Assembly: GCA_004296455.1 (NCBI GenBank)
Contig: AP018280.1
Span: 186,001 to 250,000 of the forward strand
DNA: 64,000 bases
Direction of reading: 5' to 3'
Source: Calothrix sp. NIES-4101
GTDB taxonomy: Bacteria > Cyanobacteriota > Cyanobacteriia > Cyanobacteriales > Nostocaceae
Shown: positions 12,875 through 61,895 of the stretch, in pieces
Layout: every line of letters starts with the position of its first letter
Numbering within the stretch: the first letter of the stretch is position 1
Made by a program: the position numbers and the translations under genes
Notes under the pieces: model-generated
What the model was told of the DNA's origin: nothing
Database searches by the model: none
What the model saw: the letters and a program-made list of their open reading frames with translations, nothing else

Positions 12875-13996
12875 ATGAATTATGTATTTACCCTTAATCA
12901 CAAAGTAGCTATGTTGACAAATATATCTTTAGGGTGGCGGTTGAGTGATTTATCAGACTTCCTTCGGAGATATAAACGGCAAAGAATTCGTGCCTTTTCT
13001 TTACTATTTGCAATAGGGTTTAGTTTCACTCTGGCACTATCTGCTTGTTCTTCTAAGACAAGCGATAATTCAGTGGCAACACAAACAACCCCAACGGCAA
13101 ATCCAACCCCAACCTCAGAAGTAACTGGTAAAGTGGTTCGCATTGGTTATCAGAAAGCAGCAACAATCCTCTTTTCTCTAAAGGCAAAAGGAGATTTGGA
13201 GAAAGCTTTGACAGCTTCAGGTGCTTCCGTAGTGTGGAATGAATTTCCTGCTGGACCACCATTATTAGAAGCGATAAACTCAGGAAGTGTTGATTTTGGT
13301 TATACCGGAGAAGCTCCACCTGTATTTGCTCAAGCTGCGGGTACACCTCTGCTTTATGTTGCCTATGATCCTTTAAGCACAAAGGCTGAAGCTATTGTGG
13401 TTCCCAAAGATTCACCAATTAAAAATGTGGCTGATCTCAAGGGGAAAAAAGTAGCCTTCGCGAAAGGTTCTAATGCTAATTATTTAGTAGTAAAAGCCTT
13501 AGAAAAAGCTGGACTCAAGTACACTGACATTACACCAGTCTTTCTCACACCTGCCGATGGACGCGCTGCTTTTGAAGGCAAAAATGTTGATGCTTGGGCA
13601 GTATGGGACCCTTATTTAGCTGTAGCTGAGAAAGCTTTAGGCGCAAGAATTCTCACCGATGCGACAGGAGTTGCTCCCAATCGTGGATATTATCTTGCAG
13701 CCAAGTCTTTTGTAGATAATAATCCCGCAGGATTGAAAACAGTTCTGGATGAAGTGAAGAAAACTAGCGACTGGGCTAAAGGCAATCCCACTGAAGTGGC
13801 ACAGTTACTTTCTCCAGTGTTGGGTATAGATGCTGCGGTATTGGAGACAGCAGAAAAACGCCGCGATTATGATGTGCTTCCTCTCACTGATGAAGTGATT
13901 ACCAAACAACAAGAAGTTGCAGACACATTCTACAAAATTAAATTGATACCTAAGCAAATTAATGTGAAGGAAATCGTTTGGCAGGGCGATAATTAA
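12875..13996 (+). CDS. Aliphatic sulfonate ABC transporter substrate-binding lipoprotein (SsuA-like)
   Basis: 373 residues. The N-terminus has a basic region, a membrane segment and a lipobox FTLALSAC (Cys near residue 58), then a low-complexity Thr/Pro linker typical of cyanobacterial lipoproteins. The mature part is SsuA/TauA-like: VRIGYQKAATILFSLKAKGDLEKAL, WNEFPAGPPLLEAINSGSVDFGYTGEAPPVFAQAAG, and GKKVAFAKGSNANYLVVKAL. It should bind alkanesulfonates or related compounds outside the membrane. No SsuB or SsuC gene is adjacent, so the permease is elsewhere. It is followed by a hairpin terminator. Alternatives are nitrate- or thiamine-precursor-binding relatives, less likely. Confidence 0.85.
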   Translation: MNYVFTLNHKVAMLTNISLGWRLSDLSDFLRRYKRQRIRAFSLLFAIGFSFTLALSACSSKTSDNSVATQTTPTANPTPTSEVTGKVVRIGYQKAATILFSLKAKGDLEKALTASGASVVWNEFPAGPPLLEAINSGSVDFGYTGEAPPVFAQAAGTPLLYVAYDPLSTKAEAIVVPKDSPIKNVADLKGKKVAFAKGSNANYLVVKALEKAGLKYTDITPVFLTPADGRAAFEGKNVDAWAVWDPYLAVAEKALGARILTDATGVAPNRGYYLAAKSFVDNNPAGLKTVLDEVKKTSDWAKGNPTEVAQLLSPVLGIDAAVLETAEKRRDYDVLPLTDEVITKQQEVADTFYKIKLIPKQINVKEIVWQGDN

Positions 13997-15104: not shown

Positions 15105-16832
15105 GTGACAAACGTGAATACTCAAAAGATAAATACACAACAGATTAAAACGGATGTCCTCGTCATTGGTGGTGGAACTGCGGGAACAATGGCAGCCATC
15201 AAAGCTAAACAAGCTAATCCTAGTTGTGAGGTATTGATTCTCGAAAAAGCTAACATTCGTCGTAGTGGTGCGATCGCTATGGGAATGGATGGGGTAAATA
15301 CAGCAGTGATTCCCGGATATTCGACACCAGAGCAATATGTACGGGAAGTCACCATTGCTAATGATGGCATTCTCCACCAAAAAGCCGTCTACCAAACCGC
15401 ACTATTAGGTTATGAAACCATTCAAGAATTGGAAAGTTGGGGTGTCAAGTTCCAGAAAGACCCCCAAGGAAATTATGATGTTAAGCAAGTGCATCGAGTC
15501 GGCAAATATGTACTACCGATGCCAGAAGGTAAAGACCTCAAAACCATTCTTACCCGACAAGTAAAACGCCACAAAGTCCAAGTAACCAATCGTGTGATGG
15601 CAACCAGGGTGATGGTGAAAGATGGGAGAGTGATCGGTGCAGTTGGCTTCGATGTGCGGGGTGGGGATTTTGTTGTTATTCAAGCCAAAGCAGTAATTCT
15701 CTGTACAGGAGCTTGTGGAAGATTAGGATTACCAGCCTCTGGGTATCTTTACGGAACTTACGAGAATCCTACCAATGCCGGAGATGGTTATTCAATGGCA
15801 TATCATGCAGGAGCAGAACTGACGAACATTGAAAGCTTCCAAATTAACCCACTAATTAAAGATTACAATGGTCCAGCCTGTGCCTATGTTGCTGGTCCAT
15901 TTGGTGCATACACTGCCAACGCAGAAGGATATCGCTTTATCAATTGCGATTATTGGAGCGGTCAAATGATGCTGGAGATTTGGAAAGAATTAAACTCTGG
16001 TAATGGACCAATTCAATTAAAAATGAATCATCTAGATGAAGATACTATCTCCGAAATTGAATCGATTTTATGGTCAAATGAGCGACCAAGTAGAGGACGT
16101 TTTCACGAGGGTAGAGGAGAAGATTACCGTACCCATGGGATTGAAATGAATATTTCCGAAATTGGTTTGTGTAGTGGACATAGTGCTTCTGGGGTGTGGG
16201 TAAATGAAAAAGCAGAAACCACAGTACCGGGATTATATGCAGCAGGAGATATGGCGAGTGTACCCCACAATTATATGATTGGGGCATTCGTTTTTGGTCG
16301 TTTGGCTGGGATTAATGCTGTTGAATATATTCACAATTTAGAGCATTTAGAGCCAGATACAGAATTTTTAGAAACAGAAAAAGCTCGTATTTATGCACCC
16401 TTAAATCAGCCTCATGGTATACCCCACACTCAAGTCGAATACAAGTTGCGACGTTTAGTTAATGACTATTTACAGCCACCAAAATCCAGCCACAAAATGG
16501 ATATTGGACTCAATCATTTTGTTCGCTACCACGAGACTTTAGCGCAAATGGGAGCCAGGGATGCTCACGAATTGATGCGTTGTATGGAAGTACATTTTAT
16601 TCGTGATTGTGCGGAAATGGCAGCACGAGCATCTCTGTATCGCCAGGAAAGTCGTTGGGGTTTATATCACTATCGTCTTGATTATCCAGATAAGAATAAT
16701 CAGGAATGGTTCTGTCATGTAAATTTGCAAAAAAATTCTCAAGGAGAAATGGTTTTATTTAAGCGTTCTGTAGAACCTTATGTAGTGGAGGTAGATTTAG
16801 ACAGAGAAGTTTATGATGTAGTAAAACAATAA
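15105..16832 (+). CDS. AprA-like FAD flavoprotein (fumarate reductase/APS reductase superfamily)
   Basis: 575 residues from a GTG, no signal peptide. The FAD-binding motif DVLVIGGGTAGTMAA is at 17-31, NAGDGYSMAYHAGAEL at about 225-239, GHSASGVWV near 358-366 and VPGLYAAGD near 374-382. The domain order is that of adenylylsulfate reductase alpha, and GHSASG aligns with the active-site His segment of AprA. An AprB-like ferredoxin (18234) and a HEAT-repeat protein follow after a GNAT remnant and a GST. Cyanobacteria assimilate sulfate through PAPS or APS reductase of another type, so this protein probably acts on a different sulfur compound. Succinate/aspartate oxidase-type activity is an alternative. 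Confidence 0.8.
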   Translation: MTNVNTQKINTQQIKTDVLVIGGGTAGTMAAIKAKQANPSCEVLILEKANIRRSGAIAMGMDGVNTAVIPGYSTPEQYVREVTIANDGILHQKAVYQTALLGYETIQELESWGVKFQKDPQGNYDVKQVHRVGKYVLPMPEGKDLKTILTRQVKRHKVQVTNRVMATRVMVKDGRVIGAVGFDVRGGDFVVIQAKAVILCTGACGRLGLPASGYLYGTYENPTNAGDGYSMAYHAGAELTNIESFQINPLIKDYNGPACAYVAGPFGAYTANAEGYRFINCDYWSGQMMLEIWKELNSGNGPIQLKMNHLDEDTISEIESILWSNERPSRGRFHEGRGEDYRTHGIEMNISEIGLCSGHSASGVWVNEKAETTVPGLYAAGDMASVPHNYMIGAFVFGRLAGINAVEYIHNLEHLEPDTEFLETEKARIYAPLNQPHGIPHTQVEYKLRRLVNDYLQPPKSSHKMDIGLNHFVRYHETLAQMGARDAHELMRCMEVHFIRDCAEMAARASLYRQESRWGLYHYRLDYPDKNNQEWFCHVNLQKNSQGEMVLFKRSVEPYVVEVDLDREVYDVVKQ

Positions 16833-16850
16833 GTTTTGGACTACTGAATT

Positions 16851-17436
16851 ATGACTAATAAAATTGCGATCGCCAAACAAGTTACAATTAGAAAAGCTGA
16901 GATTAAAGATGCAGAAAGAATTACTCATCTGTGCAAACAACTTGAATATTCTGTGACGCAGTTACAAATAGAGCAATGCCTTACCAAAATTAAAAATGAT
17001 GATTCTAAGATAAGTAAGTCGGCACGATAAAACCAAGGTATGTTGAGTTTTGTAAAAAGCCTGGAACGATTCTTTTATAAGCTCTTTGTTGGCTTTACAC
17101 TTCGTTACATAGGTTGATTTTTTAACGCCGACTTACTTACTATACGTTGCAGTTCTAGCAAATGACCATGTAATTGGTTTAGTACAAGCATATATCCGTA
17201 ATTTGATACTTTGTCCTACTCTTGCATTTGTTCATTGTTTAGTTGTAGATAAAAATTATCGACATCATGGATTGGGAAGACTTTTAATGAAACATATTGA
17301 AGAGTGGATTTCTTTTGTTGGATATGATGGAACTTTGCTGCGTTCTGACATTAAACGTGAAGAATCACATTTATTTTACGAGAAGATTGGCTACACAAAT
17401 ACCAAACAGCAAAAGACATTTCATAAGGCATTATAA
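16851..17436 (+). pseudogene. GNAT acetyltransferase gene interrupted by a small element
   Basis: The first part reads TIRKAEIKDAERITHLCKQ from the ATG at 16851 and is broken after SKI by the 125-base element at 17013. The second part continues VAVLANDHVIGLVQAY, DKNYRHHGLGRLLMKHIE (acetyl-CoA loop) and SHLFYEKIGY to 17436. Removing the element with one TA copy leaves exactly 153 codons in one frame. GNAT proteins transfer an acetyl group from acetyl-CoA; substrate unknown. It starts 18 bases after the AprA-like gene, so it was probably in that operon, and its insertion may affect expression of the genes behind it. Confidence 0.85.
17013..17137. mobile_element. MITE (125 bp) with TA target duplication
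   Basis: Ends are perfect 11-base inverted repeats AGTAAGTCGGC (17013-17023) and GCCGACTTACT (17127-17137), flanked by TA on both sides (17011-17012 and 17138-17139). TA duplication and short non-coding body are typical of elements mobilised by IS630/Tc1-mariner-type transposases. It splits the GNAT gene. No transposase with these ends lies in the window. Confidence 0.85.
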
Positions 17437-17538
17437 ACGCTTCATCACATAACCAATTACAAAAACACAAATATCATTGAAAAACATAGTAGGGAATTTC
17501 TGAGTAACAAATGAACTTTACTATCCCAAGGGAAAAAG

Positions 17539-18210
17539 ATGCTAGAGTTATACAGTTATTATCGCTCCACAGCTTCCTACAGAGTCAGAATTGCATTGGA
17601 ATTAAAAAAGATTCCCTATAAATATAAAAGTGTTTATAAATTGCGAAAGAATGACCCTATATTCACAGAAGAATATAGTAAAATCAACCCACAAAAATTA
17701 GTGCCAACACTAATTGATGGCAACGCTCATATCAGCCAATCTTTAGCCATAATTGAATATCTAGAAGAATGTTATCCTCAGCCATCACTTTTACCAAATG
17801 ATGCTTTATCACGTGCTTATGTGCGTCAAATAGCGTTACTCATAGCCTGTGATATTCATCCTTTAAGTGTAATGAGAATTCGTCGATATTTCACCTCAAA
17901 TATGAGCCTGAATTTTGCACAAAAAATGCTTTGGTATCGTCACTGGGTGAACGAAGGTTTGCAAGCTTTGGAAGAAATTATGAGCAATAGTAAATTACGT
18001 GGTAGTTTTTGCTGTGGAGATGAGCCAACTATCGCAGATGCTTTTCTGATTCCTCAAGTCTATAATGCCGAGCGATTTCAATGTTCTTTAGAACCATATC
18101 CAATTATTCGCCAAATATATAATATATGTCTAAATCAGCCTGCATTTATCGCTGCACAACCACATTTACAGCCAGATGCTTCAGAGTATAGTCCTACTGA
18201 TGAATATTAG
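17539..18210 (+). CDS. Glutathione S-transferase, zeta class (maleylacetoacetate isomerase-like)
   Basis: 223 residues. The zeta signature YRSTASYRVRIALELK (active Ser region) stands at the N-terminus, followed by KINPQKLVPTLIDG and the helical C-terminal domain with GDEPTIADAFLIPQVYNAERF. Zeta GSTs isomerise maleylacetoacetate or maleylpyruvate and dechlorinate alpha-haloacids with glutathione. AAGGGAAAAAG precedes the ATG. It lies between the AprA-like gene and its ferredoxin, 23 bases from the latter, so it probably takes part in the same pathway rather than tyrosine breakdown. Confidence 0.85.
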   Translation: MLELYSYYRSTASYRVRIALELKKIPYKYKSVYKLRKNDPIFTEEYSKINPQKLVPTLIDGNAHISQSLAIIEYLEECYPQPSLLPNDALSRAYVRQIALLIACDIHPLSVMRIRRYFTSNMSLNFAQKMLWYRHWVNEGLQALEEIMSNSKLRGSFCCGDEPTIADAFLIPQVYNAERFQCSLEPYPIIRQIYNICLNQPAFIAAQPHLQPDASEYSPTDEY

Positions 18211-18233
18211 TATTCGATAATTAAGGATATTTT

Positions 18234-18461
18234 ATGGCTTTAACAACACAAAGAATTGATGTTCCGGTAATAGTTGATGAATCAAAATGTTTAGATAAAT
18301 GTGTAGCTTGTATTGAAGTTTGCCCGTTAGATGTGTTAGCCAAAAATCCAGAAACAGGTAAAGCTTATATGAAATATGATGAGTGTTGGTTTTGCCTACC
18401 TTGTGAAAAAGAATGTCCTACAAATGCAATTACAGTACAAATTCCCTTTTTATTGCGCTAG
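18234..18461 (+). CDS. AprB-like 2[4Fe-4S] ferredoxin
   Basis: 75 residues. Two cluster motifs: CLDKCVACIEVCPLDVL and CWFCLPCEKECPTNAI. The spacing and the phrase YDECWFCLPCEKECP are like the beta subunit of APS reductase, but the protein is shorter and lacks the long C-terminal tail that wraps AprA. It would carry electrons to or from the flavoprotein at 15105. RBS AAGGA before the ATG. The HEAT-repeat gene follows by 10 bases. Confidence 0.85.
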   Translation: MALTTQRIDVPVIVDESKCLDKCVACIEVCPLDVLAKNPETGKAYMKYDECWFCLPCEKECPTNAITVQIPFLLR

Positions 18462-18471
18462 AGGCTTAAAA

Positions 18472-19464
18472 ATGTCAATCAATATCTCAAATAATCTAAA
18501 TTTCAGTAATAATCCTGAATTAAGTCAATGGTTGGAAATGTTGCGATCGCCTAACCTAAATGACCGATTAGTAGCGGTGAAAACTCTACAGCATTTAGGG
18601 GAAGAAGAAGCTATAGATGCTTTAATTATTGCTCTAGAAGATGAAAGCATATCTGTACAAAGAATAGCGATTAATGCCCTCTGGGAAATTGCTAATCCTG
18701 TTGCTATTCCTGCTTTATTAAAATCCCTTGGTTCCCCAGATGTAGAAATTCGTAACGAAGCATTATCAGCTTTAGGTGAATTGATATCTTCAGAACATTT
18801 ACTACTATTATTAGATGCTTTACAGCAGGAAAATATTGATTTACAGCTTAACGTTTTAATCCTCTTACGCAAAATTCATGATGTCCAGTCCTTACCTGCG
18901 GTACTGGGCTTTTTTGATTCTCAATATCCCCAACTTCGAGAAGCCGCAATTACTACCCTCAGCTATCTCAATCAAGTCAAAATATCTCCTCCGGCTCTGG
19001 CTCTCATGGCGGATGATGATGATTCTGTACGTCGTGCTACTGCTCTAACTTTGGGGCATTTGGCAGATACAGAGATAGTCGATTTATTAAGTAACGTATT
19101 AATTAAAGATACTGATTGGCAAGTTCGCCGAAATGCTGCAAAATCTCTGGCACTTCATGCTGATGCTAAAGCAATTCCATTTCTTGTTGCTGCACTCAAG
19201 GATGAACATTGGCAAGTGCGAAAATTTGTATTACAGGCACTCCATAAAATACCAACAGTTGAGTCTTTATCCGTAGTAATTAAAGCGATGAATGATGAGT
19301 ATTCAGATGTTAGGAAAGAAGCTGTCATTGCACTTAGTAGCTTGATTAGTTGTGAATCTATTCCTCAAGCTATCAGTGCCCTACAACAAGCCTTAGATGA
19401 CCCCGATAGGGAAGTTAGTATTTATGCAGAGAGGGCAATTAAAAAAACTCAAGTCTACAAATAA
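18472..19464 (+). CDS. HEAT-repeat protein
   Basis: 330 residues from the ATG at 18472 (an upstream frame inside the ferredoxin gene is not used). About nine HEAT/PBS-lyase-type repeats of some 31 residues are visible, e.g. DALIIALEDESISVQRIAIN, ALLKSLGSPDVEIRNEALSA and FLVAALKDEHWQVRKFVLQA. Such solenoids are protein-protein scaffolds; phycobilin lyases share them but the chromophore-binding features are not evident. Placed directly after the ferredoxin, it may hold the flavoprotein-ferredoxin pair together, which is an inference. Confidence 0.85.
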   Translation: MSINISNNLNFSNNPELSQWLEMLRSPNLNDRLVAVKTLQHLGEEEAIDALIIALEDESISVQRIAINALWEIANPVAIPALLKSLGSPDVEIRNEALSALGELISSEHLLLLLDALQQENIDLQLNVLILLRKIHDVQSLPAVLGFFDSQYPQLREAAITTLSYLNQVKISPPALALMADDDDSVRRATALTLGHLADTEIVDLLSNVLIKDTDWQVRRNAAKSLALHADAKAIPFLVAALKDEHWQVRKFVLQALHKIPTVESLSVVIKAMNDEYSDVRKEAVIALSSLISCESIPQAISALQQALDDPDREVSIYAERAIKKTQVYK

Positions 19465-19662: not shown

Positions 19663-20328
19663 ATGAAAATTACAGTAGATTTCTACTACGGATTAGGTAG
19701 CAGATACTCATACCTCGCAGCATCGAAAATTTCTCAACTTGAGCGAGAAAACAATTGTCAATTTATTTGGAAACCTATTTATAGTGGTGACTTAATCCAA
19801 CTTCGGGGACAAATCCCATTCACTCACAAGCCAGTTTCTGGACAGTATAATCATTTATATCGCCATTGTGATGCAAAACGCTGGGCAGATTACTACAATA
19901 TACCTTTCCATGAACCAAAAATTTCATCTTTGCATCCCCAATATTTAGCATTAGCAACTTTAACTGCTGGAAAATTCAATTTATTAGTTGAATATAGCCA
20001 AGCAGTATTTGATGCTATTTTTGCCAAGGGAATTGATATAGACGAAAAATTTGCGATCGCAACAGCTACAAATCTTGGTATCCCTCAGGAAGATTTTACC
20101 GCAATTCTCAGTTCGCAAGATGCGATCGCTCAATTAGAATCTCTAACTCAAGAGGCATTTCATCGAGGAGCATTTGGTGTGCCAACATTTTTTGTGGGAG
20201 AAGAAATGTTTTGGGGTAACGATAGACTTGTTTTATTGACACATTACTTAAACAAAATCTCTGCAAACCTCTACAAAACCTCACGTTGTAACTCTGGAAA
20301 AACCTTCGACACCTTACCCAACACATAA
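19663..20328 (+). CDS. 2-hydroxychromene-2-carboxylate isomerase-like protein (DsbA / GST-kappa fold)
   Basis: 221 residues. DFYYGLGSRYSYLAASKI carries the catalytic Ser of the family; RWADYYNIPFHEP and the cis-Pro segment GAFGVPTFFVGEEMFWGNDR complete it. Enzymes of this group isomerise 2-hydroxychromene-2-carboxylate in naphthalene (and naphthalenesulfonate) breakdown using glutathione; others are GST-kappa. The last 20 residues overlap the end of the convergent dioxygenase gene by 58 bases. A decayed copy lies at 39331-39607. A role in an aromatic pathway is inferred. Confidence 0.8.
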   Translation: MKITVDFYYGLGSRYSYLAASKISQLERENNCQFIWKPIYSGDLIQLRGQIPFTHKPVSGQYNHLYRHCDAKRWADYYNIPFHEPKISSLHPQYLALATLTAGKFNLLVEYSQAVFDAIFAKGIDIDEKFAIATATNLGIPQEDFTAILSSQDAIAQLESLTQEAFHRGAFGVPTFFVGEEMFWGNDRLVLLTHYLNKISANLYKTSRCNSGKTFDTLPNT

Positions 20329-21284
20329 TCTCCATACGTCCCACAAAAATTATAAATGTTAGCGCCATCCCAACGTTCTTCCCTATCATCATTGATTGCC
20401 TTACCTAAATCAATCGGTTTAACTTCAGCATCAAAATTGGGATCAAAAAAGAAGGGAAATGAAAAACGATTTTTCTCTGAGAAATTCTGCACACGATGGG
20501 GTGTAGAACGATATAAACCTCTAGTCATCCTGTCCAACATATCACCAATATTACATACAAAAGCACCTGGAATAGGAGGGGCAGCAATCCAGCCTGAATT
20601 CGATTTTATCTGCAATCCACCTAAATTATCCTGTTTTAAAATTGTCAAAACTCCATAATCTGTGTGTTCTCCCACACCCCATCTTTCATCATCCAACCGT
20701 ACAGTATCAGGAGGATAATTAAAAATACGAAATAATATTAATGGATTTGAAGTGTAGCGGACAAAATATGACTCTTCCAAACCCAAACTCAAAGCAATAC
20801 CAGTCATGAGAATATGCCCCAATTGCGTCATTACTTCCATATATTCCAGTACAGTCTCACGGAAATGAGGAATACTTGTAGGAAAAAGATTACAACCATG
20901 CATAGGAACACCAGCTTTTACTAACGGATGCTCCTCTCCCAGTTCCGCACCAAAATAAATCCCTTCCTTTAAGTCGGGTTTCCCAGATGTGAGTTCACTA
21001 CCAACTGGAAAATATCCACGCCATGCCCTACCACCTAAAGCCATGCGAATTTTTAGCTTTGTTTCTAAATCTTGAGCAAAAAATTGACGACTGAATTCTT
21101 CTAAACTTTTCTGTAATCTTTCATTCACACCATGTCCGACAATATAAAAAAATCCCGACTCACGACAAGCTTTTCCAATTTGAGATGCAACAGAATAACG
21201 CTCATCACCGCCAGAAACCAAACCACTAATATCAATTATTGGGATTTGGGAAAATCCTTCATTCACAACTTCCCTACTTTGCAT
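20271..21284 (-). CDS. Isopenicillin N synthase-family 2OG-Fe(II) dioxygenase
   Basis: 337 residues from the ATG at 21284, with AAGAGG upstream; an ATG at 21305 lacks such a site. N-terminal DIOX_N domain (IPIIDISGLVSG, GFFYIVGHGV) and C-terminal double-stranded beta helix with GEHTDYGVLTIL (His-X-Asp) and STPHRVQN (third His), then RFSFPFFFDPN (Arg-X-Ser, 2-oxoglutarate binding). The family hydroxylates, desaturates or closes rings on diverse small molecules. It is convergent with the isomerase gene and divergent from mrp. Substrate unknown. Confidence 0.85.
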   Translation of the reverse strand: MQSREVVNEGFSQIPIIDISGLVSGGDERYSVASQIGKACRESGFFYIVGHGVNERLQKSLEEFSRQFFAQDLETKLKIRMALGGRAWRGYFPVGSELTSGKPDLKEGIYFGAELGEEHPLVKAGVPMHGCNLFPTSIPHFRETVLEYMEVMTQLGHILMTGIALSLGLEESYFVRYTSNPLILFRIFNYPPDTVRLDDERWGVGEHTDYGVLTILKQDNLGGLQIKSNSGWIAAPPIPGAFVCNIGDMLDRMTRGLYRSTPHRVQNFSEKNRFSFPFFFDPNFDAEVKPIDLGKAINDDREERWDGANIYNFCGTYGDYVLGKVSKVFPELQREVL

Positions 21285-21345
21285 AAATAAACCTCTTCTT
21301 TCCATCCCAATATCAAGTTTGCCCTTTATTCTTCACAAATTATCA

Positions 21346-22416
21346 ATGTCAAACCATCAATCCCCTTTCCAACCCCCAAAAACAGACATACCAACCTCAC
21401 CTCCCGACTCCCTTAGTGTAATTCGTCAGCAAGAAGTTATTCAATTATTTAAACAAATCATTGAACCAACCTTAAAAAATGACATCATTAGCCTGGGAAT
21501 GGTACGAAATCTGCGTATAGTTGATGACTATGTTTACCTGCGTCTCTACATTGGTTCCCATCAATATGAATTACAAACAGAAATTCAAAACCTACTATCA
21601 TCCCTGACTTGGTGCAAAAAAACTTACATCCAACTCTGCACAATTCCAGGAGTCAGAACTGCGATCGCAGTTTCCAGTGGTAAAGGTGGCGTAGGTAAAT
21701 CCACAACTTCTGTCAACCTTGCAGCAGCTTTACATATAGCTGGGGCAAAAGTTGGTCTTTTAGATGCCGATGTTTATGGTCCAAACGTTCCCCAAATGCT
21801 AGGACTAGGAAAATCTGAGATTAAGGTCATTGATACCCCCAACGGTAAAAGATTTCTACCCCTTGAATCTCAAGGAATAAAAGTTATGTCGGTCGGCTTA
21901 TTAGCAGAACCCGACCATCCTTTAGCATGGCGTGGCCCCGTTTTACACAAAATCATTACTCAATTTATCAATGAGGTGGAATGGGGAGAACTCGATTATT
22001 TGCTGATCGATCTCCCACCAGGCACAGGTGATGCTCAAATTACTATTATTCAGGAAAGTCCGATTTGTGGGGTGATATTAGTGACAACCCCTCAACAAGT
22101 TGCTATTTCTGATGTTCGTCGTAGTATTCATATGTTCCGCCAAGTAGGGCTTCCAGTTCTCGGTATTATTGAAAATATGAGTTATTTCCTTAGTAAGGGT
22201 GGAGAAGAAACACCAATTTTTGGTAGCGGTGGTGGGCAAAAATTAGCTGAAGAACTTCAAACTCCTTTACTTGGTCAAATTCCCATTGATCCTCGTATTT
22301 GTGCTGGTGGCGATGCCGGAGAACCATTAACGCTTACCGAGCCACATTCCTCTGTAGGTGAGATATTTAGGCAGATTGCCGGGGCACTAAATACAACTTT
22401 TTCTCCTTTTGCATAA
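21346..22416 (+). CDS. mrp: Mrp/NBP35-family Fe-S cluster carrier ATPase
   Basis: 356 residues from the ATG at 21346; an in-frame TTG at 21319 is an alternative. The N-terminal MIP18/DUF59 domain (about 1-90, ISLGMVRNLRIVDDYVYL) precedes the P-loop SSGKGGVGKST and DADVYGPNVPQMLG. It ends with MSYFLSKGGEETPIFGSGGGQKLAEEL. The CxxC pair used for cluster binding in other Mrp proteins is not visible. Mrp proteins insert Fe-S clusters, so it could serve the local ferredoxins and may be a second, specialised copy beside a housekeeping Mrp. Confidence 0.85.
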   Translation: MSNHQSPFQPPKTDIPTSPPDSLSVIRQQEVIQLFKQIIEPTLKNDIISLGMVRNLRIVDDYVYLRLYIGSHQYELQTEIQNLLSSLTWCKKTYIQLCTIPGVRTAIAVSSGKGGVGKSTTSVNLAAALHIAGAKVGLLDADVYGPNVPQMLGLGKSEIKVIDTPNGKRFLPLESQGIKVMSVGLLAEPDHPLAWRGPVLHKIITQFINEVEWGELDYLLIDLPPGTGDAQITIIQESPICGVILVTTPQQVAISDVRRSIHMFRQVGLPVLGIIENMSYFLSKGGEETPIFGSGGGQKLAEELQTPLLGQIPIDPRICAGGDAGEPLTLTEPHSSVGEIFRQIAGALNTTFSPFA

Positions 22417-39625: not shown

Positions 39626-41803
39626 TCAAATTTGAAAATCCCAGATAGTTATAAATTTTCCACAATTTTGATTCGCAGGAACAGCCTCGTTCATTTTTTT
39701 AGGAAAGGGCAATTTCAAGTTATTCATCAACTCAATAAATTGATTTCTACTGCGTCCTGCAAATCGAGGATTCCATTGCTTTTCTTCACCAATTGTGGAA
39801 ACTGTTCGTCCTTGGTAATCATGACCCGGATATACTAATGTCTCATCTGGTAATGTAAACAACTTCTGAGTCACTGCATCGTAAAGTGAACCAGCATCTC
39901 CATTTTGGAAATCAGTACGACCACAACCACGAATGAATAATGCATCCCCAGTTAACAGATGGGTTTTGTTCACCAAGTAAGTCATGTGACTGTCAGTATG
40001 CCCTGGAGTTGCGATCGCCTGAATTTCTACGCTTCCCAATTTTAAAATATCTCCGTCTCGAATATAACGATTGCCACCAACAGCATAGGAATTTTCGGGC
40101 ACGATAGCCACACAACCCGTAATTTGTCGGAGTGTATCGGTTCCGGTAATATGATCGGCGTGAATGTGAGTTTCTAAACAATAACGTAAGGTTAATCCTA
40201 GCTCTTGCAGAATTTGCAAATCCCGTTCGACTTGTTCTAATACGGGATCGACGAGAAGGGCTGTGTGAGTTTCAGAATCGATAATTAAATATGTGTAAGT
40301 ACAAGATTCGCGATCAAATAATTGCCTAAATATCATCTGAGATTCATTTGATGCTAATACTGGTTGTTTGCTAAAGCAAATTTCCTTAATCGCAGCATAA
40401 AATTTGTCGTTGAAAGAGTTCAGTATTTCCATCGCCAAATTTGCAGCTTGAACTCGAATTTCTGGAACCGCAGTCGTTTCCCAAAGAGTACCTTTACGAG
40501 GTGTTCCTAAAGTATATAACTGCTTGGATATTTTTCCATCAGCATCAATAAGAGCACCATTTGTAGCAGTATCGACTCCTATAGATAAAGAATTGAGACG
40601 AATTAACCGTTGCTCTTGCAAGCTAGCAAGTAATGGATGCTGCATTCTCCGATAGTTACAATTTGAGCCAGTACAGTTAATAATCCGATTCACATGCAAA
40701 ACTCTATTTTTACCCGTTTTGCGATCGCGAATTGTCACATTCACACCATTTTCTAATTCTTGGCAACTTTGAATTCTGCCACCGTAATAGTTTAATTTAC
40801 CCAATTTTGTTGCTATATCCAAAGTATTGGCAATTTCCGGTGCAATCCGATGACGGTGAACTTCCCAATAAGCTTTCACATGACGTAAAAATCGCTTTTG
40901 TTCTGTTAATGGGAGTGCTTGCCAAAGCTCTTGAGTAACTGGGCGAATTGCATCGATTACTGTTCGCCAATCTTGTCCTTGAGAAGCAGCTATTTTAATT
41001 TCTTGACGCACTAAATGTAATAATTGTCTGGCTGTTTTTGGTGCAGTTGCTACATCAATAAATGCTGGATAAATATAATTTTGTTCCTGGCATAATGGCA
41101 TTAATCCATGGCGAGAAACAGCATGAATTTTTCCTTGAAAACCTTTTGCTTGGAGAGCGACAACTATATCTACCATCGTCAACCCAGTTCCCACCAATAG
41201 TATAGAATCTTCTGGATTTAGTCCTGCGATCGCATTATGCGACCATGCATCTGTAATATAATGTTCACAATTTTCCAAAGAAGCAAGTGGTTGCGGTAAA
41301 GATGCAGGAAAATTTCCCAATGCTAGTACTACCTTATGAGCAGATAAACATTCGCCTCCACTCAAATATATAGTTGTATTTTCACTCGCAGATTCAATTG
41401 CGATCGCCTCATCAAATATTTTTTCAAATCGTACGTAAGCAGGCGTATTTTCCTCTGCTTCTTTCAATATTGCTTGTACATAATCCCCATAAACCCGACG
41501 GGGAACAAAGGTAGATGCTATTACTTCTTCGTACCCATTTTTATGTAACCAATTTAAAAAATGATTCGCTTCATCGGGAAATGCACTCATTTTACCAGCC
41601 GGAACATTGAGCAAATGGGATTCTATTTGCGTACCATAAGCAACTCCCCTACCGGCTTCATGACTGCGCTCTATCAACTTAATAGTGAGTGGAATAGTCG
41701 CATTCCTGAGAAGATTTGCAGCTACCAAAGAACCGCTAAACCCACCTCCAATGATGGCAACTATCTGAGGAGAAACACTCAAGTTTAAAAAGCTTGTATC
41801 CAT
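39626..41803 (-). CDS. Fusion of an FAD/NAD(P)-binding protein with a persulfide dioxygenase-like (ETHE1-type) domain
   Basis: 725 residues. Residues 1-470: FAD-NAD(P)-binding family, with VAIIGGGFSGSLVAANLL, SHLLNVPAGKMSAFPDEANHFLNWL and SILLVGTGLTMVDIVVALQAKG. Residues about 490-725: metallo-beta-lactamase fold with THIHADH, TPGHTDSHMTYLV, LLTGDALFIRGCGRTDFQ and YPGHDYQGR, all ETHE1/blh markers, which oxidise glutathione persulfide to sulfite. The two functions are usually on separate genes. The fusion suggests the flavoprotein supplies or handles persulfide. The C-terminal few residues look divergent. Confidence 0.85.
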   Translation of the reverse strand: MDTSFLNLSVSPQIVAIIGGGFSGSLVAANLLRNATIPLTIKLIERSHEAGRGVAYGTQIESHLLNVPAGKMSAFPDEANHFLNWLHKNGYEEVIASTFVPRRVYGDYVQAILKEAEENTPAYVRFEKIFDEAIAIESASENTTIYLSGGECLSAHKVVLALGNFPASLPQPLASLENCEHYITDAWSHNAIAGLNPEDSILLVGTGLTMVDIVVALQAKGFQGKIHAVSRHGLMPLCQEQNYIYPAFIDVATAPKTARQLLHLVRQEIKIAASQGQDWRTVIDAIRPVTQELWQALPLTEQKRFLRHVKAYWEVHRHRIAPEIANTLDIATKLGKLNYYGGRIQSCQELENGVNVTIRDRKTGKNRVLHVNRIINCTGSNCNYRRMQHPLLASLQEQRLIRLNSLSIGVDTATNGALIDADGKISKQLYTLGTPRKGTLWETTAVPEIRVQAANLAMEILNSFNDKFYAAIKEICFSKQPVLASNESQMIFRQLFDRESCTYTYLIIDSETHTALLVDPVLEQVERDLQILQELGLTLRYCLETHIHADHITGTDTLRQITGCVAIVPENSYAVGGNRYIRDGDILKLGSVEIQAIATPGHTDSHMTYLVNKTHLLTGDALFIRGCGRTDFQNGDAGSLYDAVTQKLFTLPDETLVYPGHDYQGRTVSTIGEEKQWNPRFAGRSRNQFIELMNNLKLPFPKKMNEAVPANQNCGKFITIWDFQI

Positions 41804-54751: not shown

Positions 54752-56392
54752 ATGATCATGTTTGTTAATCCTGAAAATGAACTGCAATTAACCACTGATG
54801 TATTGGTAATTGGTGGAGGTCCTGCGGCAGCATGGGCAGCTTGGTCGGCAGCTTTCCAAGGTGTGAAAGTAATTGTTGTTGATAAAGGTTTCCTTGGTAC
54901 GAGTGGTGCAGCTGCTGCCAGTGGAAACGGAATTATGGCTCCTTCTCCAGAAAATTGGGAAAAAGTTGCATCAGAACGCTACCGTGTTGGTAAAAATCTG
55001 GCTAACTTACGTTGGATTGAGCGAGTGATTGAAAAAACTTGGTTAAGTTTACCCCTGGTCGAAGATTGGGGTTATCGTTTCCCCAAAGAAAACGGGGAAT
55101 CGGTGCGCCAAAGTTATTATGGACCTGAATATATGCGAGTGCTTCGCAAAGAACTGTTACGGCTTGGTGTACAAATTCTTGACCAAAGTCCCGCTTTAGA
55201 ACTTTTATTAGCTGAAGATGGCTCGGTGGCAGGTGCAAGAGGTATACAACGACAACATCACCGTGCTTATACTATTCGTGCGGCTGCGGTAGTTATGGCA
55301 AATGGCGGTTGTGCATTCTTAAGTAAAGCTTTGGGTTGCAATACCAATACCGGGGACGGAATGCTCATGGCTGTAGAAGCGGGGGGTGAACTTTCTAGTA
55401 TGGAAGCTTCCAATCACTACGCTATCTCCACTGCCTTTAATGCCACCGTAACACGGGGTGTTCCCTTTGGTTGGGCTAGTTACAGCGATGAAGCAGGTAA
55501 TGATTTAGGTGGCTACATCAATGGTCGTCGTGACCCAGCATTTCTTCCCAATGCTCTGCTTAAGGGTCAGGTTTACGCTCGTTTAGATCGAGCCACACCG
55601 GAAGTCAAAGCAGTAATTGAAAAATCCCATTTCATCGCTTTTCTACCTTATAAAAAAGCTGGAATTGACCCCTATAGTGAACGAGTACCCGTGACCTTAG
55701 TATTAGAAGGTACAGTTCGCGGTACGGGTGGTATCAGGATTATCAATGATAATTGCGCTACTAAAGTTCCTGGACTCTACGCAGCTGGGGATGCAGCATC
55801 GCGGGAATTTTTAGCGGGGTTAGCTTCCGGTGGTGGTGGTCCCAATGCCGCTTGGGCAATTTCCACAGGACAATGGGCTGGAGAAGGTGCGGCTATATTT
55901 GCCAAAAAATTAGGAAACCATGCTCACGAAAGAATTGCCCATCCCGTTGGTCAAGCCGGATTGAGGAGTCATTCCCCAAGTTCCGAAACATGCGATCGCG
56001 AAGCCATTGTTAAGGGTGTACAAGCCGAGGTATTCCCCTTGGAAAAAAATTATCTACGTTCCGAATCAAAACTGTTAGATTCCCTCGCTAAATTAGAAAC
56101 TTTATGGCAACAGGTACAAAATAGCCCCAAACAAGATACCGTCCGCGATGTGGAATTTTCTCGACGAGCGGCTGCATTAACTGCTGTAGCCCGATGGGGA
56201 TATTTTAGCGCCCTCCATCGCACAGAAACCCGCAGCGAACATATTCGCATAGACTACCCAGAAACCGATCCCAATCAACGCTATTACCAAGCCACAGGCG
56301 GTTTAGACAAACTTTGGGTGAGACAGGATTGGATTGTAGATCCAGTTGACACACCATCAAAATTAATTACTCAAACCACAGCTTCGGTATAA
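54752..56392 (+). CDS. AprA-like FAD flavoprotein (second, divergent copy)
   Basis: 546 residues. DVLVIGGGPAAAWAAWSAA (about 16-34), ALGCNTNTGDGMLMAVEAGGEL, VRGTGGIRIINDNCATKVPGLYAAGDAAS and LASGGGGPNAAWAISTGQWAGEGAA follow the fumarate reductase/APS reductase alpha fold. The active-site His segment GHSASG of the copy at 15105 is not present here; an Arg in EGTVRGTGG takes the place, so the chemistry should differ. A dicluster ferredoxin follows after 21 bases. RBS AAAGGAC. An electron-accepting or -donating reaction on a sulfur or carboxylate compound is likely. Confidence 0.8.
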   Translation: MIMFVNPENELQLTTDVLVIGGGPAAAWAAWSAAFQGVKVIVVDKGFLGTSGAAAASGNGIMAPSPENWEKVASERYRVGKNLANLRWIERVIEKTWLSLPLVEDWGYRFPKENGESVRQSYYGPEYMRVLRKELLRLGVQILDQSPALELLLAEDGSVAGARGIQRQHHRAYTIRAAAVVMANGGCAFLSKALGCNTNTGDGMLMAVEAGGELSSMEASNHYAISTAFNATVTRGVPFGWASYSDEAGNDLGGYINGRRDPAFLPNALLKGQVYARLDRATPEVKAVIEKSHFIAFLPYKKAGIDPYSERVPVTLVLEGTVRGTGGIRIINDNCATKVPGLYAAGDAASREFLAGLASGGGGPNAAWAISTGQWAGEGAAIFAKKLGNHAHERIAHPVGQAGLRSHSPSSETCDREAIVKGVQAEVFPLEKNYLRSESKLLDSLAKLETLWQQVQNSPKQDTVRDVEFSRRAAALTAVARWGYFSALHRTETRSEHIRIDYPETDPNQRYYQATGGLDKLWVRQDWIVDPVDTPSKLITQTTASV

Positions 56393-58512: not shown

Positions 58513-59538
58513 TTGTTAGCATTAAATACCACTGTGTCCAGGAAAAGTTGTTTAGCACTGTTGTTGATTATAGGAATAGCAATCGCACTCATAATTCCTC
58601 CTGCTTTTGCAGCTAGTACAAATCCCTGTCCTTTAGAAATGGCAATGATTCCCGGTGGAAAATTTATGATGGGGTCAGATAATTCCACTTATATAGAAGA
58701 ACTTTCGGCACAAGAGGTGACAGTTAGTTCTTTTTGTATAGATAAACATGAGGTGAGCAATTCGCAATTTGCAGAGTTTGTCAAAGCGACAGGATATGTA
58801 ACAGTTGCAGAGCGTCCTTTATCAAAGGAGCAGTTTCCCGATTTACCAGATGAGCAAAGATTACCTGGTTCACTAGTTTTTCAAATCGCAAAACCAGGAG
58901 CAAAATACCTGAGTTGGTGGCATTGGCAAATAGGGGCGAATTGGCAACATCCATTTGGGTTAGAAAGTGCGCTTACCCATCAAGAAAATTATCCAGTTGT
59001 GCATATTGCCTACGAAGATGCCCTAGCCTATGCCCAATGGGCAGGAAAATCACTACCTACCGAAGCCCAGTGGGAATATGCTGCTCGTGGTGGATTAGAC
59101 AACGCAACTTATGCCTGGGGCGACCAATATTCTGAGAAAAAAGCCAACACATGGCAAGGAATCTTTCCCTTTTTTAATACCAAAAGCGATGGTTACGTGG
59201 GTATTGCTCCTGTTGGTTCCTTTCCATCCAACGGTTATGGTCTTTATGACATGACAGGTAATGTCTGGGAATGGACGGCAGATTGGTTTCAACCGGGACA
59301 CAACCATAAAAGCCATAGTGTTAATCCCACAGGACCAACAGCAAGCTTTGACCCCAATAAGCCTAGCGAAACAGTTCTCCATGTAATCAAAGGTGGCTCT
59401 TATTTGTGTGCGCCCAATTATTGCAGTCGCTTCCGTCCAGCAGCACGAGAATCTCAAGCCCCCGATACGGGAACTACTCATATCGGATTTCGCTTAGTGA
59501 AGAATTTGACTATAGATATAGATAAGGATGAAGAATGA
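58513..59538 (+). CDS. Exported formylglycine-generating enzyme (sulfatase-modifying factor)
   Basis: 341 residues from TTG; a GTG at 58537 is an alternative start. A signal peptide (about 12-34, [22 protein letters not shown]) is followed by the FGE-sulfatase domain: [47 protein letters not shown], and the end [19 protein letters not shown] with both active cysteines (about 299 and 304) of aerobic copper-dependent FGE. It converts the sulfatase active-site Cys to formylglycine with O2. Its stop overlaps the arylsulfatase start by four bases, so they are translated together. Secretion of FGE suggests modification outside the cytoplasm. Confidence 0.9.
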
Positions 59539-61895
59539 AGTTTAAATCAATACACTGGAATTTATTTCCAGATACAGCCAAGGCGATCGCGTTATTTTTA
59601 CTCGTAATTTTATTAACGATCGATAGCCCTGCTCTAGCAGCCACATCGCAGATTTTACCTGTTCCCGAACCAGAGTTCAAGGGGAAAATTGGTCTGACCT
59701 ACAAAGAATCACAACCAGACTTTCCCCAACCCATCAGCGCCCCAGCTAAAGCTCCTAATGTCTTGCTGGCAATTTTAGATGATGTGGGTTTCGGACAAGC
59801 CAGTACCTTTGGTGGGGTGGTGGAGACTCCCAACCTCACTCGTCTCGCGGAAAGAGGGTTGCGCTACAACCAATTTCATACCACAGCCCTATGTTCGCCG
59901 ACCAGGGCAGCTTTGTTAACTGGACGTAATCACCATTCGGTAAATACAGGAGTGGTGGAAGAATTAGCTACAGGTTATCCCGGCTACACAACAGTTTTAC
60001 CTAAGAGTGCTGCCACGGTTGCGGAAATACTGCGACAAAATGGCTATAACACCGCAGCCTTTGGTAAATGGCATAACACCCCTGACTTTGAAACTAGTGC
60101 TGCCGGACCCTTCGACCGTTGGCCCACAGGGTTAGGTTTTGAGTATTTTTACGGCTTCCTTGGTGGTGATACTAATCAGTGGAGTCCAGCTTTGGTCGAA
60201 AATACCAAACGTGTAGACAAACCCAACAAACCCGATTATCACCTAACACCTGACCTCGTAGACCATGCGATCGTCTGGATTCGCAATCAAAAATCCATTG
60301 CTCCCGAAAAACCCTTTTTCGCCTATCTGGCTACCGGAGCAACCCACGCACCCCACCATGCTCCCAAGGAGTGGATCGATAAGTACAAAGGTAAATTTGA
60401 CCAAGGCTGGGATAAATTGCGCGAGGACATCTTCAATCGCCAAAAACAACTGGGTGTAATTCCTGCCAATACCCAACTTACTCCCCGTCCCCCAGAACTA
60501 CCTGCTTGGGATTCCCTCTCGGCAGACCAGCAAAAGCTCTATGCCCATATGGCTGAGGTATTCGCGGGATTTTTAGCCCATACAGATTACGAAGTCGGTA
60601 GGCTAATCGATGCTGTTGAGCAGCTTGGCGAACTTGATAATACCCTGGTAGTTTACGTAGTTGGAGATAATGGAGCTAGCGCCGAAGGGGGATTAACCGG
60701 AAGCGTCAACGAACTGCAAGTTTTCAATGGTGTACCCGAAAATCTCCAACAACTCCTAGCTGCCTACGATGATTTGGGTAGCCCCAAAACCTTCAACCAT
60801 TTTCCCGCAGCTTGGGCATGGGCAGTTAACACACCCTTCCAATGGACAAAGCAAATCGCCTCCCACTTTGGTGGTACTCGTAACCCTCTGGTGATTTCCT
60901 GGGGTAAAAATATTCAAGACCAAGGTAGTATTCGTAGCCAATTCCATCATGTTATTGATATTGCACCCACTATTTTAGAAGTAGCGGGAATTACTGCTCC
61001 GAAGGAAGTTAATGGTGTCAAACAACAACCAATCGAAGGTACTAGCCTTGCATACACATTTAATGATCCGAATGTGTCTTCCCATCGGGAAACTCAATAT
61101 TTTGAGATGCTCGGCAATCGAGCCATTTACCATGAAGGTTGGATTGCAGCAGCGCGTCATGGTCGCTTACCTTGGGAACGGACTGTCAAAGGCAGTTTTG
61201 AGACAGATGAGTGGGAACTGTACAATATTGCCGAAGATTTTAGCGAGGCAAATAATCTAGCGAAGCAAAACCCAGATAAGCTAGAAAAACTGCAAAAGTT
61301 ATTTTTAAAAGAAGCCCGTAAGCACCAAGTACTACCATTAGACGATCGCATCGCTGAAAGATTTGATGTCAAAATTCGCCCCAGTCTCACCAAAGGACGC
61401 ACAAGATTCACCTACTATCCTGGTACAGTTGGCATTCCAGAAGGTAGCGCTCCCAACCTCAAAAATCGCTCCTTCACAATTACCGCGAATGTAGAAGTTC
61501 CAGAAAATGGAGCCGAAGGTGTTCTCCTTACCCAAGGTGGGCGCTTTGCAGGTTGGAGCTTCTTTCTCAAGGATGGCAAACCTACCTACGTCTACAACTA
61601 CGCCAATACAGCCCGTTACACCATCCAATCCCCGGAAAAATTGCCCTCCGGTAAATCCCAAATTCGATTCAACTTCGACTATGACGGTGGTGTCGGTACG
61701 GGTGGCACTGGTAAATTATTTATCGGCGATCGACAGGTAGCTGAAGGTCGAGTTGATAAAACCATTGCTTACCGTTTAGCCCTGGACGAAACTTTTGATG
61801 TGGGCAGAGATACGGGTACTCCAGTCGTGGATAGCTATCAAGTACCCTTTGCTTTCACTGGTAATTTACAACAAGTCAGCTTGGAACTCAAGTAA
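59535..61895 (+). CDS. Exported arylsulfatase
   Basis: 786 residues. Signal peptide about 15-36 ([19 protein letters not shown]). [15 protein letters not shown] gives the metal Asp pair; [15 protein letters not shown] carries the C-x-P-x-R motif with Cys120, the residue turned into formylglycine; [21 protein letters not shown] and [12 protein letters not shown] complete the active site. The last 170 residues form a separate beta-rich domain ([23 protein letters not shown]), as in large AtsA-type enzymes. It releases sulfate from aryl (or alkyl) sulfate esters. Its upstream partner is the FGE gene. Confidence 0.95.

Follow-up and report, generated by a model that had tools for sequence, protein, structure and literature searches.

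A conserved unit of an APS reductase-branch flavoprotein, a two-cluster ferredoxin and a HEAT-repeat protein adjoins sulfonate-type uptake genes

In Pseudomonas putida S-313, the asfRABC cluster encodes a reductase/ferredoxin system, a substrate-binding protein with an ATP-binding cassette (ABC)-type transporter and a LysR regulator; in the part of its description available to us, an asfA mutant lost the use of aromatic sulfonates whilst retaining that of aliphatic ones, and the cluster is called a tool-kit complementing ssu (PMC4267179). A reductase-ferredoxin pair is named AsfA/AsfB in the accessible portion of the C. metallidurans genome paper (PMC2864759). Here we report on three genes of the cyanobacterium Calothrix sp. 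NIES-4101, encoding an AprA-related flavoprotein, a 2x[4Fe-4S] ferredoxin and a HEAT-repeat protein. They occupy positions 15105 to 19464 of a 64,000-nucleotide stretch of contig AP018280.1 (G000:C1:186001-250000 in our numbering, where G denotes genomes and L loci). This whole stretch is hereafter termed the window, and coordinates are relative to it unless marked otherwise.

The three-protein module is real and conserved and, to judge from the literature found, biochemically uncharacterised. From its genomic setting, it most likely helps bacteria to take sulfur from imported organic sulfonates. We lean towards reading the trio as an AsfAB-type redox module for sulfonate utilisation.

Conservation and gene arrangements

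A genome scan with a six-sequence flavoprotein alignment recovered at least 574 confirmed relatives; what the preliminary description had presented as a cyanobacterial oddity is instead a member of this family. The 86 loci compared comprise the best 80 of these relatives, ranked on flavoprotein similarity alone, five plasmid loci selected to broaden the range, and the window; gene order was read in 13 of the 51 plasmid records with a match. The ferredoxin gene lies near the flavoprotein gene in 82 of the 86 loci and the HEAT gene in 81, which bears out the earlier assignment of the latter to the unit. Four loci without both partners (L048, L063, L074 and L085) and one without HEAT only (L101) come from contigs or stretches that end before the expected place, as judged for L048 from its close relative L046. 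The association is thus far beyond chance. Both partners are also present in eight more plasmid loci (L141 to L147, by tblastn and in six cases also by annotation; L205), while 15 further betaproteobacterial loci hold the ferredoxin in every case and HEAT in 13. The unit, combining a flavoprotein of the adenosine 5'-phosphosulfate (APS) reductase branch that has its own active site with a tailless two-cluster ferredoxin and the HEAT protein, is present in three phyla: Cyanobacteriota, Pseudomonadota and Actinomycetota.

The overall order is flavoprotein, ferredoxin, (ABC genes), HEAT. Proteobacterial loci run from a GntR regulator through flavoprotein, ferredoxin, substrate-binding protein, permease, ATPase and HEAT to DUF971, or have flavoprotein, ferredoxin and HEAT first; GntR is upstream in 40 of the 44 loci L077 to L120 and in 15 of the 15 further betaproteobacterial loci. 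Alphaproteobacterial plasmid loci (L039, L142 to L144) begin with DUF971. Cyanobacterial loci are of two types. In type I, genes for a binding protein, permease and ATPase and a divergent LysR gene accompany flavoprotein, ferredoxin, HEAT and Mrp, in many cases with sulfite/sulfate exporter-type genes (TauE, YeiH). In type II, to which the window belongs, an SsuA-type gene precedes the flavoprotein, variable cargo separates it from ferredoxin and HEAT, and Mrp is usually nearby. The unit is wider than the interval from 15105 to 19464, with an SsuA-type protein upstream and an Mrp/ApbC-type carrier downstream (Table 1). The former position recurs in Nostoc-type loci; in many cyanobacterial loci, Mrp follows HEAT immediately or at a short distance downstream.

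Several loci deserve separate mention. The type I LysR of Pseudanabaena (L037) has 671 residues and a weak C-terminal match to NMT1_2, below its cut-off; regulators of 666 to 678 residues with such an extra C-terminal part are encoded at 6664-8679 of L037, 5403-7439 of L147, 8136-10133 of L192 and 10829-12835 of L193. Lying divergent beside cyanobacterial modules, these large LysR proteins may, from their architecture, sense the transported ligand directly. Two Prochlorococcus single-cell genomes (L073, L075) carry the module at a flavoprotein identity of 70-71%, together with a transporter and a YeiH-type gene. Three betaproteobacterial genomes (G587, G486 and G546) each hold two copies of the unit (L177/L178, L180/L181 and L184/L185); the copies differ in gene order, which suggests two substrate specificities. 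On pTcM1, a 65-kb mobilizable plasmid of Acidithiobacillus caldus (L146), the trio and GntR have no ABC genes beside them and are followed by FdxA and a large FAD-dependent oxidoreductase.

The flavoprotein and its partners

The window flavoprotein scores 1016.9 bits against NCBIfam NF006131 (PRK08275; curated cut-off 587) and is thus a member of that family. It reaches 911.9 bits with NF010374 (PRK13800, an 898-position model; cut-off 1196), and remains below the cut-offs of both AprA models (NF005331, 321.3 versus 557 bits; TIGR02061, 198 versus 641.75), of the succinate dehydrogenase/fumarate reductase (SDH/FRD) model (158.2 versus 567.3) and of L-aspartate oxidase (TIGR00551, 120.3 versus 452.75). 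By family profile, its closest solved relatives are the alpha subunit of the 3'-phosphoadenosine 5'-phosphosulfate (PAPS) reductase of Methanothermococcus thermolithotrophicus (mtPAPSR; 284 bits) and the AprA of A. fulgidus (AfAprA; 208 bits).

Phylogeny was inferred from 45 rows with IQ-TREE (LG+C20+F+G4 by posterior mean site frequencies), with SDH and one NadB row included; long-branch warnings were raised, AfAprA and NadB among them. The family forms a single clade (98/99). Its sister (99/96) is a clade (100/100) that unites AfAprA and mtPAPSR with AprA of assimilatory type, the last-named coming from distant phylum members; both SDH and the NadB row fall outside this grouping. A Foldseek search ranked mtPAPSR (8a8o) first (E 2e-36, TM 0.79 by query), followed by E. 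coli FrdA and AfAprA. The AlphaFold model was used for fold only because its mean predicted local distance difference test (pLDDT) score is 73 and its active-site loops are weak (predicted TM-score, 0.81). Tree and fold hence uphold the AprA relationship proposed at the outset, and the tree did not give the placement with aspartate oxidases or fumarate reductases that had been named as the contrary outcome, SDH and the one NadB row standing for these.

The distant members of the phylum that served as controls (L023 to L029; group f38) constitute an observation of their own, being a separate, assimilatory-looking APS reductase branch. The AprA proteins of the four scanned (L023, L024, L028 and L029) score 774-796 bits against NF005331, and a tailed AprB-type open reading frame (ORF) is present in seven of the seven loci.

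The active site is distinct from those of the relatives. The N74 of AfAprA is kept (N65), and the GHSASG segment is conserved, as first noticed from the sequence, with His359 in it aligning with mtPAPSR His346 (the match being made via mtPAPSR rather than AfAprA H398). In contrast, L250 and Y219 stand in place of R265 and W234 of AfAprA and do not vary among 38 family members. We take N74, R265, W234 and H398 (A. fulgidus numbering) to be substrate residues of AprA. The loop of mtPAPSR at 104-123, whose role is described together with an N5-FAD mechanism in the available part of its report (PMC10322725), carries K120, R121 and S122; the flavoprotein has a longer loop reading GKYVLPMPEG there and no KRS triplet, although the alignment is uncertain at this point. 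The E. coli SdhA residues R286 and H242 correspond to Gln287 and Asn248, likewise invariant in 38 aligned members. Arg286 and His242 are catalytic in SdhA.

Could the trio be an APS or PAPS reductase for sulfate assimilation, equivalent to AprAB or mtPAPSR? As far as the accessible text on mtPAPSR goes (PMC10322725), the likeness extends to an FAD subunit of the same branch and fold, two 4Fe-4S clusters in a small partner that also has a Cys-Trp pair, and the active-site Asn and His. However, the profile scores are far below the AprA cut-offs, the clade is separate from all AprA and PAPSR rows, the trio lacks the AprB tail and adds a third partner gene, and the adjacent transporters are of sulfonate type. 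Reduction of APS or PAPS is unlikely because R265 and W234 are not kept; moreover, the window genome has its own assimilatory PAPS reductase-family protein, CysH (PF01507, 188.9 bits). The AMP- and APS-type chemistry put forward for assay in the preliminary description thus finds no support, and we regard a true APS/PAPS reductase as very improbable, rejecting it on scores, tree, residues and CysH.

The database name of NF006131, 'fumarate reductase/succinate dehydrogenase flavoprotein subunit', would point to a dicarboxylate enzyme, and the superfamily is indeed the same. Against this, the SdhA residues are replaced, the score for the SDH/FRD model is low, the tree sets the flavoprotein apart from SDH, and the window genome holds another protein with a better Succ_DH_flav_C match that groups with SDH. 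An enzyme of this kind is the least credible of the alternatives, and fumarate reductase, SDH and NadB identities were rejected on tree, scores and residues; the misleading name would be corrected accordingly.

A second fumarate-reductase-like flavoprotein of 546 residues is encoded in the window at 54752-56392 and lies above none of the cut-offs among its 25 best NCBIfam matches listed. It pairs in the tree with a protein of the same genome (L004; C1:129331-132537) encoded about 4 kb from SsuD, and is possibly another organosulfur redox enzyme.

Each of the 82 ferredoxins retains the eight cysteines and the DECW segment unchanged, and the tryptophan aligns with that of the AprB Cys-Trp pair. 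A part in electron transfer has been proposed for Trp42 of mtPAPSR (PMC10322725). The window ferredoxin has no AprB-type C-terminal tail (75 residues; 35.9 versus 135.65 bits for the aprB model), in agreement with its initial reading as AprB-like, with a double cluster motif and without the tail. Matches to HgcB-like ferredoxins (38.5 versus 99 bits) were taken as generic 2x[4Fe-4S] similarity.

The HEAT protein is modelled as 20 stacked helices (pLDDT 95). It is 23-31% identical to 21 aligned proteobacterial proteins; because 17 positions nonetheless stay invariant in 40 proteins, including W216, R219, W247, Q248 and V249, a binding surface is suggested. Its best NCBIfam match is to positions 615-897 of NF010374 (85.3 bits), the model of the PRK13800 fusions, in which the N-terminal part corresponds to the flavoprotein and the C-terminal part to HEAT; the two genes of the window are there one. 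Such a natural fusion is found on plasmid 5 of Tsukamurella tyrosinosolvens (893 residues; 1568 bits against the NF010374 cut-off of 1196), where, in this one case read, ferredoxin and ABC genes adjoin. Compared with separately encoded HEAT proteins, its HEAT part shows 29-37% identity in the eight best matches. A putative role as assembly scaffold had been suggested for HEAT at the outset; the fusion speaks for a lasting association no less than for passing help in assembly. The HEAT/PBS-lyase-like repeats are shared with phycobilin lyases and NblB (75 bits), but a role of that kind was rejected: all scores are below cut-off, and the genomic partner is the flavoprotein, in proteobacteria too. 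No paper on the HEAT partner or on a cyanobacterial asfA was found in the searchable literature, which excludes most subscription journals.

The sulfonate link

The evidence for sulfonates lies chiefly in the neighbouring uptake genes and, in cyanobacteria, in a strong association with SsuD. The window binding protein passes the SsuA cut-offs (Table 1); for the two long binding proteins scanned, one from a type I and one from a proteobacterial locus, SsuA_fam was the best match at 137 and 122 bits, short of the 163.5-bit cut-off. The trio has its uptake protein family (SsuA) in common with SsuD, an FMNH2 enzyme of luciferase fold to which it is not related. In a phylum sample of 386 genomes, the flavoprotein family is over cut-off in 17 and SsuD in 31. 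SsuD occurs in 15 of the 17 carriers versus 16 of the 369 others (Fisher p about 1e-16, lineages not being independent). The association holds within the window's own family (11/11 carriers versus 11/32 non-carriers, p 2e-4) and outside it (4/6 versus 5/337, p 3e-6). NtaA/DmoA monooxygenases were found in 11 of 17 carriers versus 2 of 17 hand-picked non-carriers. Of the sulfite-, persulfide- or sulfonate-type substrates initially suggested, sulfonate is the best-supported class on account of SsuA, the uptake genes and the SsuD link; the inorganic species fare poorly. A function in the detoxification or salvage of sulfite or persulfide would accord with the TauE- and YeiH-type genes adjoining type I loci and with a window rich in sulfur genes, several of them below their cut-offs. 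The recurrent companions are nevertheless sulfonate-type uptake systems and the SsuD link persists, so that we consider this function improbable.

Likeness to AsfAB(C), in so far as the available descriptions extend, lies in the succession of reductase and ferredoxin genes by a sulfonate-type binding protein and ABC transporter in many proteobacterial loci, and in overlapping hosts (Variovorax, Cupriavidus, Burkholderia-type bacteria, Pseudomonas and actinobacteria). In the window, this type of organisation is met with the binding protein upstream and a split GNAT gene and a glutathione S-transferase (GST) gene between reductase and ferredoxin. In P. putida KH-21-134, a single NF006131 protein exceeds the cut-off (1135 bits; next, 138), and 13 of the 200 genomes of an Aquabacterium genome's family have members of at least 1056 bits, the next among the matches listed scoring 216. 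A fumarate-reductase-type AsfA in those hosts would have to belong to NF006131, because no intermediate flavoprotein class is listed. The module is probably identical in kind with AsfAB, by analogy of this sort.

A number of observations weigh against this identification. The descriptions of asfR, as far as available, make it LysR-type, whereas the proteobacterial loci studied here mostly have GntR. A large LysR marks cyanobacterial type I, and the window has neither LysR nor GntR beside the flavoprotein; no match to a LysR of the type I kind was found near it. The HEAT partner goes unmentioned in the accessible asf descriptions, as do Mrp and DUF971, and HEAT was undetected in two of the 15 further betaproteobacterial loci (L182 and L187), in which the ferredoxin is present. 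The identity with AsfAB, probable as it is, is drawn from gene order, description and host range. In the window itself, the split GNAT gene and the GST gene separate flavoprotein from ferredoxin, and SsuD is encoded about 48 kb before the window (C1:136621-137658). The SsuD association may also reflect in part shared lineage or genome size. Lastly, SsuD is missing in two of the 17 cyanobacterial carriers (G121 and G197, both type I), and also in the two Prochlorococcus single-cell genomes, which may be incomplete (1.8 and 1.1 Mb).

Because some carriers are without SsuD, the module is not everywhere a mere electron supplier for that enzyme. Genome G121 (99% complete, one contig) has the type I unit in full, together with an ABC transporter of its own and an exporter of the YeiH type, and yielded no luciferase-family or TauD match at E 0.001, other oxygenase families not having been searched; the trio may on this account itself be the catalyst. 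The same two families gave no match in the two Prochlorococcus single-cell genomes, possibly partial. An oxygenase-independent sulfonatase, cleaving the C-S bond by itself rather than supplying SsuD with electrons, is accordingly a tentative alternative that we hold to be rather unlikely. It would sit well with the lack of a constant oxygenase neighbour among the types sought (of the 86 loci, 10 have a DmoA-type match no more than 9 kb away, and two have the 2-oxoglutarate (2OG) type of the window; other families were not sought). On the other hand, the cyanobacterial carriers that lack the LysR-type arrangement have SsuD in 12 of 12 cases, and the SsuD-less G197 has one luciferase-family and two TauD-family proteins. 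Aryl sulfonates yield phenols in P. putida S-313, the oxygen coming from O2; a carbanion would be an unfavourable leaving group. In its fullest form, to which we give the same modest credence, the alternative would have the trio as a self-sufficient FAD/4Fe-4S complex whose nucleotide pocket is remodelled for sulfonate sulfur, with HEAT as an obligatory subunit and sulfite exportable by type I loci.

For the preferred AsfAB-type redox module, the following mechanism is proposed. Flavoprotein and ferredoxin would form an AprAB-like complex, and HEAT would be a permanent third subunit that holds the complex together or docks a partner. Mrp, which occurs beside the trio in many cyanobacterial loci, would help to load the 4Fe-4S clusters, a maturation role proposed because Mrp is an Fe-S carrier type; DUF971, found in many proteobacterial loci, would take its place there. 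With a cellular ferredoxin or NAD(P)H as donor, electrons would reach FAD by way of the two clusters and the tryptophan. The FAD would then either act on the sulfonate after import, or on a product formed from it, or supply the oxygenase that breaks the C-S bond. The sulfite released would enter assimilation through sulfite reductase. In Calothrix, an SsuA-type gene is the sole uptake gene adjoining the unit. There the module probably extends the Ssu system to compounds beyond the reach of SsuD by itself, for which aromatic sulfonates offer a precedent.

If the family is AsfAB, then the module has a regular third partner in HEAT and often an Fe-S carrier gene, and its reach extends to cyanobacteria, including the two Prochlorococcus single-cell genomes. 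At least one carrier is without SsuD, luciferase-family or TauD match, making AsfAB function directly testable.

The window locus and its surroundings

The genes of the locus are listed in Table 1. The HEAT gene truly starts at the ATG at 18472, a longer ORF from 18376 overlapping the ferredoxin gene in another frame; with this correction, all three genes of the preliminary description are present.

Table 1 Features of the Calothrix locus (window coordinates)
Feature	Coordinates	Strand	Evidence
SsuA-type aliphatic-sulfonate ABC substrate-binding protein, 373 aa; upstream partner	12875..13996	+	PRK11553 303.7 bits (cut-off 299); SsuA_fam 245.6 bits (cut-off 163.5)
AprA-related flavoprotein, 575 aa, GTG start; NF006131/PRK08275	15105..16832	+	1016.9 bits; tree; fold match 8a8o
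GNAT acetyltransferase gene, interrupted; optional cargo	16851..17436 (pieces 16851-17030, 17203-17436)	+	GNAT gene at same place in several relatives
Miniature inverted-repeat transposable element (MITE)-like element within GNAT gene	17011..17139 (about)		46-nt terminal inverted repeats, 72% complementary
Zeta-class GST/maleylacetoacetate isomerase type; window-only cargo	17539..18210	+	TIGR01262 262.2 bits (cut-off 171)
2x[4Fe-4S] ferredoxin, 75 aa; AprB-like without tail, DECWxCxPC motif	18234..18461	+	8 Cys
HEAT-repeat protein, 330 aa, ATG start; third conserved partner	18472..19464	+	Corresponds to PRK13800 fusion proteins in their C-terminal part
DsbA-fold protein, gene placed between HEAT and Mrp; outside the conserved unit	19663..20328	+	PF01323; cluster comprises one locus
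2OG-Fe(II) oxygenase between HEAT and Mrp	20271..21305	-	PF03171, PF14226; among 86 loci common only to Brasilonema L055
Mrp/NBP35-ApbC type Fe-S cluster carrier ATPase; recurrent downstream gene	21319..22416	+	PF10609 313.9 bits; PF01883

Neither the GST nor the DsbA-fold protein has a clustering homologue in the other 85 loci. The GST gene noted earlier inside the unit is confirmed, and is of the maleylacetoacetate isomerase type, but it is absent from the conserved unit; a functional part for it was rejected. The GNAT gene goes unmentioned in the preliminary description. The MITE-like element that splits it has eight full-length copies in the genome, including this one. Recent activity is suggested because seven of the eight are 99-100% identical to the query, the remaining copy being 83% identical.

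The window is rich in sulfur genes, among them a rhodanese-type gene, CysE, a Rrf2/CymR-like regulator and a metallo-beta-lactamase-type protein, several of them below their cut-offs. In the region 58513-61895, a protein that weakly matches formylglycine-generating-type families (GldK, EgtB and SenA) precedes one that resembles arylsulfatases; both stay below the cut-offs. Judged on gene content, these genes together with SsuA, CysA, CysE and the Rrf2/CymR-like gene make the window look like a sulfur-scavenging island. The 725-residue protein encoded at 39626-41803 has an N-terminal part of FAD/NAD(P)-binding appearance and a C-terminal metallo-beta-lactamase part, below cut-offs, that resembles hydroxyacylglutathione hydrolases and sulfur dioxygenases (Blh).

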